Assembly (NCBI GenBank): GCA_015233195.1
Contig: JADFYE010000019.1
Span: 3,658-36,431 of the forward strand
Length of the DNA stretch: 32,774 nucleotides
Direction of reading: 5' to 3'
Origin: Candidatus Omnitrophota bacterium
Lineage (GTDB): Bacteria > Omnitrophota > Gorgyraeia > Zapsychrales > Zapsychraceae
Made by a program: the position numbers and the translations under genes. How positions within the stretch are numbered: the stretch's first letter is position 1; each line of letters begins with the position of its first letter. The notes beneath the pieces were generated by a model. It was given only the letters and a program-made list of their open reading frames with translations, was not told where the DNA came from and did not search any database. Positions 28,687-30,538 of the stretch are shown in pieces.

Positions 28687-29133
28687 ATGGATAATACAGT
28701 TGCAACAAATAAAAAGGCTTTCCGTGATTTTGAACTTTTTGATAAGTATCAATGCGGGATAGTTTTGCAAGGTGCCGAGATAAAATCTGTCCGCGCAGCT
28801 AAAGTAAATTTCAAAAGTGCGTTCGCACGCGTCGATGAAGACGAGGTTTATCTTTATAATTTGAGTATTGATCCTTATGCGCAGGCGAGTTATTTGAACA
28901 CTTTATCTGAACGTCCTCGCAAATTGCTTTTACATAAACGTGAGATAAAAAAACTTAATGGGATTTTACAGCAGAAAAATATGACTTTAGTACCAACGCA
29001 ATTATATTTTAATGCTCGAGGAATATTAAAGGTTGAGTTAGCTTTGGCAAAAGGAAAGCGGTCGTTTGATAAACGTGATGACATTAAAAAGCGTGAGATA
29101 GGTCGCGAGATTGACCGCAGAATGAAACAGTAA
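28687..29133 (+). CDS. smpB: SmpB, tmRNA-binding protein
   Basis: 148 residues of the SmpB OB-fold: FELFDKYQCGIVLQGAEIKSVR, YLYNLSIDPY, RPRKLLLHKREIKKL, and the basic C-terminal tail (GKRSFDKRDDIKKREIGREIDRRMK) that mimics mRNA in the ribosome. It partners the tmRNA encoded 150 bases downstream. Adjacent smpB and ssrA is a common arrangement. Confidence 0.97.
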   Translation: MDNTVATNKKAFRDFELFDKYQCGIVLQGAEIKSVRAAKVNFKSAFARVDEDEVYLYNLSIDPYAQASYLNTLSERPRKLLLHKREIKKLNGILQQKNMTLVPTQLYFNARGILKVELALAKGKRSFDKRDDIKKREIGREIDRRMKQ

Positions 29134-29378
29134 AAAAGTCAAACGTTAAAAGTCAGACGTCAGAAGATGGGAAAAGTTTTCGGAGGGACAGCAGAGAACA
29201 AAAGTTGCTATATAACCATTTTTTATGTATATTTATTACTACATACAACATACTACGCACTACATACTGTAAAAATTTACATATGGGGGTGATCGGATTC
29301 GACTTAAGATGTTGATGTGTAGGTGGCATGCCGAGGAAGCCTGGTTGGCCTCGTAAAAAATCTGGGCACAAATTAAAC

Positions 29379-29438
29379 GCAAACTACGATGTAGTTGCCG
29401 AAGCACAAAGCTACCTTTTAGAAGGTGCTTTAGTCTAA
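29379..29438 (+). other. tmRNA tag reading frame
   Basis: From resume codon GCA: ANYDVVAEAQSYLLEGALV then TAA. It starts like known tags (AN...) but is long, and ends ALV in place of the usual LAA. A hairpin, AAAGC-T-ACCTT with AAGGT-GCTTT, is formed inside the frame. The resume codon is chosen by resemblance to other tmRNAs; the other frames give no tag-like peptide. Confidence 0.65.
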
Positions 29439-29652
29439 GTTACAAGCTAACTTAGCCTTTTTATCGGGAATGTCCGCGGCTCGATAAAAAGCACTTCGCG
29501 GGCTGGTCGTTTCGGATGTTCTCGCCGGAATGACAAGATTTAGAGAACTGGGTTTAACGCATCGTGTACGATTCGAGTCGTTAAACTAAGATTAAAAAAC
29601 GTGCTACGCATGTAGAAGCTTATGCAAAGCTCTTTAAGGACCGGGGTTCGAT

Positions 29653-30294
29653 TCAAATGGGTCGACTTCTGGAGTAATCCAGAACGAAAAACTTGGCTTA
29701 CATCAAGGAAACCCTAATCTCAGTATTTTGAGATGGGCAATCTTGAGGGGTGAAAGCCCTGCAGAGACTTCCTCGATAGCGAGGGGATAGGAGACAATAC
29801 TGTTGATAGAAGTTGAGAAGGCATACATTGCCGGAATTATTGATGGTGAAGGAACGGTTTCATTAAATAGAAGACGTAAAAATGAAACTCATACGCCTAA
29901 TGTTTCAATAGCTAATAATAATTTAGTAATGTTGCAGTGGATCCAGTCAAAAGCTGGAGGGTTGATTTGTTCTAAGAAAAAAAGATTAGCCCATCACAAT
30001 AATTCATATGCTTGGTCAGTAAGACAAGATCGAGCAATTGATTTTCTCAACGAAATTAAAAAGTATTTGATCATTAAAAAACAACAAGCTGAGTTAATAA
30101 CAATGGAGTATAAAAAGGTTACACATCGAGCAGGAAAATATACCCCGGAACTGTTAGCAAAAAAAGAAGCGCTTGTTGAAAATATTAGACAACTGAATCA
30201 ACGGTAAATTTAGGTCTTCTATAATACGCCAGGCTCCCGAGTATTTTCGGGATGAAGAAATAGTCCACGCTATTTGGAAACAAGTAGATTTGTG
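29653..30294 (+). other. Group I intron in the T-loop of tmRNA
   Basis: 642 bases. P1 is formed by exon UCGAU and intron bases UC with the guide GGGUCGA at 29659-29665, giving the required U-G pair at the splice site. A P-Q region (ATCAAGGAAACCCTAAT) follows. The R-like element GCAGAGACTT is at 29761-29770, and the S-like element AAATAGTCC at 30258-30266 supplies the P7 AGTC partner. The intron ends in G (30294), and splicing there restores a 7-base T-loop and CCCCG T-stem. The LAGLIDADG gene lies between R and S. Boundaries were deduced by restoring the tmRNA, not by a covariance model. Confidence 0.85.
29803..30207 (+). CDS. Intron-encoded LAGLIDADG homing endonuclease
   Basis: 134 residues with one LAGLIDADG motif (YIAGIIDGEGTVSL, about 8-21), so it would act as a homodimer. 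A conserved-looking NNNLVMLQWIQSKAGG and the DFLNEIKKYLIIKKQQAEL helix follow, as in small LAGLIDADG proteins. It starts at TTG 29803 with ATAGGAGA 8 bases ahead; no ATG is available at the family start. It lies inside the tmRNA intron, in the P7-P8 region. Expected role: cut intronless ssrA genes at the T-loop site to spread the intron. The reading frame is intact. Confidence 0.88.
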   Translation: MIEVEKAYIAGIIDGEGTVSLNRRRKNETHTPNVSIANNNLVMLQWIQSKAGGLICSKKKRLAHHNNSYAWSVRQDRAIDFLNEIKKYLIIKKQQAELITMEYKKVTHRAGKYTPELLAKKEALVENIRQLNQR

Positions 30295-30298
30295 TCCC

Positions 30299-30311
30299 CG
30301 CACCTCCACCA
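30299..30311 (+). repeat. tmRNA 3' end repeat, copy 1 (functional)
   Basis: CGCACCTCCACCA, the end of the T-stem plus acceptor and CCA. The same 13 bases recur at 30450-30462. Confidence 0.85.
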
Positions 30312-30346: not shown

Positions 30347-30364
30347 ACATCTGCTTCGGCATAA

Positions 30365-30399
30365 ACAGAGCGAGAATAAATTCTCGTTCTGTTTTATTT
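30365..30399 (+). terminator. Intrinsic terminator of ssrA
   Basis: ACAGAGCGAGAA pairs with TTCTCGTTCTGT over 12 bp (one G-U), loop TAAA, then TTTTATTT. Confidence 0.8.
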
Positions 30400-30449
30400 C
30401 TCGTATCTGTTTGGCGGGCGTGGCATCTTTGTAAAATTTATGATGACCT

Positions 30450-30462
30450 CGCACCTCCACCA
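30450..30462 (+). repeat. Displaced copy of tmRNA 3' end (att-like)
   Basis: CGCACCTCCACCA again, preceded by CCT. It could pair with the tmRNA acceptor perfectly and with the CGGGG T-stem (CCUCG, one G-U). It lies 151 bases after the functional copy and beyond the terminator. Confidence 0.7.
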
Positions 30463-30472
30463 GTTTAAAAAT

Positions 30473-30538
30473 GAAGTCCGCAAATTGTTGAAAAAAAACG
30501 ATTTGCGGATTTTGTTTTTATGCTATCTTAATTTGGTG
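30473..30538 (+). repeat. 66-bp terminator-like repeat, copy C1
   Basis: Begins GAAGTCCGCAAATTGTTG. The stem TCCGCAAAT/ATTTGCGGA is followed by TTTTGTTTTT, then TATGCTATCTTAATTT. It matches 32454-32519 at 64 of 66 positions. Confidence 0.85.

Follow-up and report, generated by a model that had tools for sequence, protein, structure and literature searches.

A group I intron with a LAGLIDADG gene in the T-loop of an Omnitrophota tmRNA gene, and its same-site relatives across the phylum

The form of tmRNA gene (ssrA) that carries an intron at T-loop position 7 was reportedly described by Williams in 2002. Counted over all positions, 883 intron-form tmRNAs from 21 phyla have since been compiled, and 36 of these carry a homing gene (Nawrocki, Petrov and Williams 2025, PMC11915505). 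According to the same compilation, T-loop position 7 holds group I introns in 21 phyla, a LAGLIDADG gene lies in the P7.1 region in 19 of the 23 gene-bearing founders, and no published tmRNA intron exceeds 700 bp. The tmRNA intron of Clostridium botulinum self-splices in vitro (PMC2729099). For genes inside introns, a precedent of translational control comes from phage T4, where the ribosome site of I-TevI and other intron endonucleases is hidden in RNA structure (reviewed in PMC2988022).

We analyzed a 32,774-nucleotide stretch of an Omnitrophota genome (hereafter, “the window”), which an earlier note on this DNA had correctly assigned to a diderm candidate phylum. Its ssrA is interrupted by an intron that shares with the published T-loop form the site after the sixth T-loop base, the U at -1 that pairs with G in P1, the terminal G and the LAGLIDADG gene in P7.1. 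There is no difference in kind, and at 642 nt the intron lies near the 700-bp ceiling. As tmRNA T-loop introns with a LAGLIDADG gene in P7.1 are already published, the window intron is a further example, and it may be one of the 36 gene-bearing cases counted in 2025 (PMC11915505); the earlier note, which called such an intron less familiar, overstated its rarity. The C. botulinum intron has the same host RNA and intron class but comes from another phylum and lacks a homing gene; it is likened here by class and by size, since its 287 nt resemble the gene-less Omnitrophota introns described below. In the literature we found no earlier description of a gene-enclosing helix, a gene swap and loss remnants within one phylum.

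The window gene matches the tmRNA covariance model RF00023 (126 bits, E 2.8e-49), in a match that stops in the T-loop with the 3' end missing, and ARAGORN calls no tmRNA in the unspliced gene. When the intron (Table 1) is removed in silico, ARAGORN accepts the resulting 385-nt tmRNA, with a rebuilt T-arm of CGGGG-TTCGATT-CCCCG and an acceptor of GGGGGTG/CACCTCC. ARAGORN gives only AEAQSYLLEGALV as the tag; relatives have tags such as ANYNPVAEAEAILAEAPALV. The covariance-model match, tag frame and tRNA-like ends are those of a standard-form tmRNA, and smpB lies directly upstream. No other tmRNA match over the cut-off occurs in the 1.98-Mb, 77.6%-complete genome; at 78% completeness a second ssrA could be missing from the assembly.

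Table 1. Features at the ssrA locus, in window positions.
Feature	Position	Strand	Basis or remark
smpB, protein partner of tmRNA	28687..29133	+	Pfam SmpB PF01668, E 1.3e-53
Possible sigma-70 promoter of ssrA	29205..29233	+	9/12 consensus matches; scan found 3 vs 3.7 expected, chance level
ssrA 5' exon, 368 nt	29285..29652	+	Acceptor strand GGGGGTG to T-loop TTCGAT; RF00023, ARAGORN on spliced sequence
Tag reading frame ANYDVVAEAQSYLLEGALV, then stop	29379..29438	+	Taken from the GCA resume codon, on the pattern of relatives
Group I intron, 642 nt	29653..30294	+	T-loop position 7, after sixth T-loop base (TTCGAT, then T); terminal G at 30294
P2	29667-29673/29678-29684	+	
P3	29692-29697/30228-30233	+	
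P4	29703-29707/29742-29746	+	
P5	29712-29714/29735-29737	+	
P6	29748-29750/29757-29759	+	
P7	29766-29769/30262-30265	+	
P7.1	29771-29774/29781-29784	+	
P7.2 5' strand and extension	29787..29805	+	Shine-Dalgarno GGAG 29790-29793 and start codon TTG 29803-29805 of the endonuclease gene; covariation
Single-motif LAGLIDADG homing endonuclease gene (HEG), 134 aa, TTG start	29803..30207	+	Pfam, family profile, pN/pS
3' strands of P7.2 extension (30199-30205) and P7.2 (30215-30222)	30199..30222	+	Covariation and thermodynamic ensemble
P8	30235-30240/30247-30252	+	
P9	30270-30276/30281-30287	+	
ssrA 3' exon, 17 nt	30295..30311	+	3' strands of T-stem and acceptor, CCA; ARAGORN
Intrinsic terminator-like hairpin after ssrA	30363..30394	+	Region scan: 5 found vs 1.0 expected
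Second ssrA 3'-end copy	30444..30462	+	17/19 identical; 151 bp after first; own terminator-like hairpin 30470-30516

Exon bases UCGAU (29648-29652) pair in P1 with GUCGA (29661-29665), with U-G at the junction, and Q/R/S-type elements are present. The window copy matches the Rfam group I model in two pieces of 28.7 and 21.1 bits and stays below the gathering score of 50 because the open reading frame splits the match; several gene-less same-site orthologues score 50.9-62.4 bits, above it (61.2, 50.9 and 61.6 bits in genomes G001, G003 and G009). ARAGORN accepts several neighbouring cut pairs as well, so the precise junction was placed by group I rules (U at -1 with G in P1, and a terminal G). 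We aligned 13 introns, gene removed, to a P1-P9 structure drawn by hand on the window sequence. Over 65 pairs, 95% of cells are paired and 29 pairs show changes in both partners; shuffles give 16.2 (0/500 as high), and sliding the structure along the alignment gives at most 14. That the structure was drawn on the window sequence favours it somewhat in the slid control; the compensatory changes in the other sequences are independent of this. Both-side changes fall in P2, P3, P4, P7.1, P7.2, P8 and P9, and P7 is invariant. The P3-P8 core with its P7/P3 pseudoknot is backed by covariation. The U-G at the 5' splice site is present in 13/13 aligned introns and the terminal G in 17/17 introns. In each of the 17, the two T-stem halves are complementary across the intron, and five stem versions occur (CGGGG/CCCCG, CCGGG/CCCGG, GGCGG/CCGCC, GCCGG/CCGGC and GCGGG/CCCGC); the exons therefore evolve as if joined. 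Removal of the 642 bases restoring a tmRNA, together with the covarying structure of relatives, upholds the earlier note's reading of an ssrA T-loop split by a group I intron, including its exon-guide pairing with U-G junction, R- and S-like elements and final G.

The intron encodes a putative homodimer-type LAGLIDADG endonuclease, judging by its sequence. The window protein scores 24.3 bits against Pfam LAGLIDADG_1 (PF00961; cut-off 23.1), and the family profile matches the PDB chains of I-MsoI (E 5.6e-7) and I-AniI (5.2e-5). Its motif AYIAGIIDGEG ends in an acidic residue, and DGEG is invariant in the window protein and ten Omnitrophota homologues (63-79% identity); 10 of these 11 proteins lie in tmRNA introns. 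The window protein resembles I-CreI and I-MsoI in its order of secondary structure and in having a single LAGLIDADG motif that ends in an acidic residue; sequence similarity to them is weak, the window protein is ~30 residues shorter, and its probable target is the T-arm rather than 23S rRNA. A two-sequence alignment gave an AlphaFold model of low confidence (mean pLDDT 55); its helix and strand order fits LAGLIDADG, but the model is too poor to base a fold search on. Between the window gene and its homologues pN is 0.15-0.27 and pS 0.63-0.86; across the homologues pN is 0.04-0.31, pS is mostly saturated, and dN/dS is 0.06-0.20 where dS is measurable. Low pN against mostly saturated pS places the frame under purifying selection. 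The earlier description of the gene as intact is borne out. A viral origin was considered and rejected: the gene has no relative in viral contigs, and the best-listed phage matches reach 29-34% identity only.

Along the RNA, the order is P7 5', P7.1, P7.2 5', HEG, P7.2 3', P3 3', P8 and P7 3'. The earlier placement of the gene in the P8 region is ruled out, as P8 (30235-30252) is a short, undisrupted helix and the gene sits between the P7 5' and P3 3' strands; its actual place is P7.1/P7.2. There, P7.2 (8 bp; 5' strand 29787-29794) and its extension (7 bp) pair the Shine-Dalgarno and start codon of the gene with its last codons and the bases just beyond, the 3' strand of the extension including the first base of the stop codon. 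In the 13-intron alignment all cells of P7.2 are paired, with three pairs changed on both sides; for the extension the values are 97.7% and two pairs. The gene has a constant length in 10/10 gene-bearing introns (390 nt, counted from its start codon to the closing Asn-Gln/His-Arg codons). The thermodynamic ensemble computed for the window intron has the bases of the Shine-Dalgarno and start codon ~99% paired, with an unpaired probability of 0.01 or less.

With the ribosome site and start codon of the gene paired in the folded intron, its translation is probably confined to precursor that is still unspliced and unfolded, and we infer that the P7.2 helix represses it. The T4 endonuclease genes have in common with it a hidden Shine-Dalgarno and an intron whose folding translation would disturb; in T4, however, the site is masked by a local hairpin, with relief from a late promoter, whereas the partner in the window is the 3' end of the gene itself. 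A consensus scan gave no internal promoter above chance here. A stronger reading, which we offer tentatively and regard as doubtful, is that P7.2 acts as a lock, such that splicing and translation of the endonuclease exclude each other: ribosomes would start only on unfolded precursor and, conversely, a translating ribosome would block maturation of the tmRNA. The earlier note's proposal that the timing of mature rescue RNA is set by splicing is conjectural.

A sequence profile of the 5' core only (R1), run over 384 Omnitrophota genomes, gave matches above 80 bits, all of them same-site introns, in 17; ssrA genes with and without the intron, which the earlier note had suggested looking for in related genomes, both exist in the phylum. 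The endonuclease gene is present in 10/17 introns and absent in 7/17, at least three of which keep coding remnants. Gene-less introns of ~255-270 nt occur in G001, of the same genus as the window genome, and in G003 and G009, of the same family. The core tree needs six changes of gene presence, counts that cannot tell gain from loss. Weak R1 matches (20-27 bits) were rejected as tmRNA introns; 11 of the 14 loci checked gave long-intron tRNA genes, chiefly tRNA-Thr. The window genome itself has a second group I intron (G000:C13:15108-15327, minus strand, L095; RF00028, 59.9 bits). By the ARAGORN call it sits in a tRNA-Thr gene with a 568-nt intron, and it comes with a 123-aa ORF of HNH type. 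Other Omnitrophota have long tRNA-Thr introns like it, and calls of further introns fall in tRNA-Tyr, -Asn and -Asp.

Three gene-less introns hold traces of the gene. In G009 the loop reads TTG AAA TTA AAT CAA CGG TAA (M K L N Q R, stop) and includes the gene's own last codons; in G379 the loop ends in AAATTGAACCAACGGTAA (K L N Q R, stop); and in G234 it starts with TTGATAGAAGT, like the window gene. From their sequences, these remnants are best read as gene losses. The gene has also moved apart from its intron: G112 and G181 share 84-96% of bases over the length of the gene and are 50-86% alike in the flanking core, while the core of G112 is close to that of G172. In AU tests, the core rejects G112 with G181 (p 0.0007) and the gene rejects G112 with G172 (p 1.8e-11), p-values that are somewhat optimistic because the pairs were picked after the identities had been seen. 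The conflict between the two trees amounts to one gene swap. Trimming for the core tree lost a little of P7.1 in the window genome and part of P6-P7 in G234 and G215, and left the test of G112, G181 and G172 untouched. In G102 (L054 985-2010), an uninterrupted ssrA is followed by a 5'-truncated intron with an intact endonuclease gene; this displaced half-intron keeps P3 3', P8, P7 3', P9 and a decayed 3' exon.

We consider it very likely that the window gene is the organism's own ssrA, that its T-loop holds a subgroup IA-like group I intron extended by P7.1/P7.2, and that this intron carries a homing endonuclease gene hidden in P7.2. As the pre-tmRNA folds, P1 would pair the last bases of the 5' exon with the guide, an external guanosine would cut after U29652, and the exon end would attack after G30294, joining the exons into the 385-nt tmRNA. 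The endonuclease would cut the T-arms of intronless ssrA genes, and double-strand-break repair would copy the intron in; the intron's scattered occurrence and the one gene swap are indirect signs of such homing. Single-motif LAGLIDADG proteins act as homodimers, and the joined T-arm DNA, CCGGGGTTCGATTCCCCGCACC, is nearly palindromic, which makes the T-arm a plausible natural target. All 17 intron-bearing ssrA genes have TTCGAT, and intronless relatives have TTCGAT (16) or TTCAAT (8), counts uncorrected for kinship; the A of TTCAAT would break P1.

It is possible, if unlikely, that the intron splices while its endonuclease no longer homes and persists as a maturase or passenger. The intron has a patchy distribution and frequently lacks the gene, and I-AniI, a LAGLIDADG protein that shows that such proteins can act as maturases, is among the PDB matches of the family profile. 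However, gene-less orthologues keep the full ribozyme structure, so that a maturase is not needed in general, and the gene has moved independently of the core and is under purifying selection, as would be expected if it were active in homing or had been until recently.

The second ssrA 3'-end copy downstream, of which the genome contains no third, is probably the attachment-site scar of an element integrated at ssrA, and it indicates that other elements have been active at the locus. Together with the incomplete assembly, it could be taken to mean that the insertion is an integrated element rather than a working intron and that this ssrA is dead, rescue being left to another ssrA or pathway. 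The covarying intron, the T-stem halves covarying across it, the adjacent smpB and the lack of another ssrA match in the genome make this very improbable. We give just as little credence to alternative 3' splicing of the 5' exon to the second copy (30446-30462), yielding a second tmRNA form: the copy follows a G and the rebuilt tmRNA is accepted by ARAGORN (loop TTCGATA), but the copy has neither a +1 pyrimidine able to pair in P10 nor an adjoining intron core, and it lies beyond the terminator-like hairpin; in same-genus G001, the part of the locus that was read has just one 3' end.

Repeats also flank ssrA elsewhere in the family. In G003 a second ssrA 3' end lies 2.9 kb downstream of the gene (L043 5625), enclosing three ORFs, and upstream (L043 1128-2049) three copies of a 197-nt repeat, whose ends resemble the tmRNA 5' end, surround an 85-aa ORF that is GIY-YIG-like by eye. 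Shortly 3' of ssrA, both G001 and G003 (L039, L038) have direct repeats GTGCCCAAA-N-AGTGCCCA, which are perhaps recombinase binding sites.

For the preferred reading, a spliced ssrA with a homing intron, the practical consequence is that standard tools miss such genes, as ARAGORN does here. Homing genes are rare among tmRNA introns, a class to which Omnitrophota add ten gene-bearing introns and a displaced eleventh gene copy. Within a single phylum and at a single site, several stages in the life of such an element are found together: the empty site, the intron with its gene, the gene swapped, the gene decayed and the intron displaced. If P7.2 does act as a lock, the output of tmRNA would depend on the number of ribosomes free to start translation.
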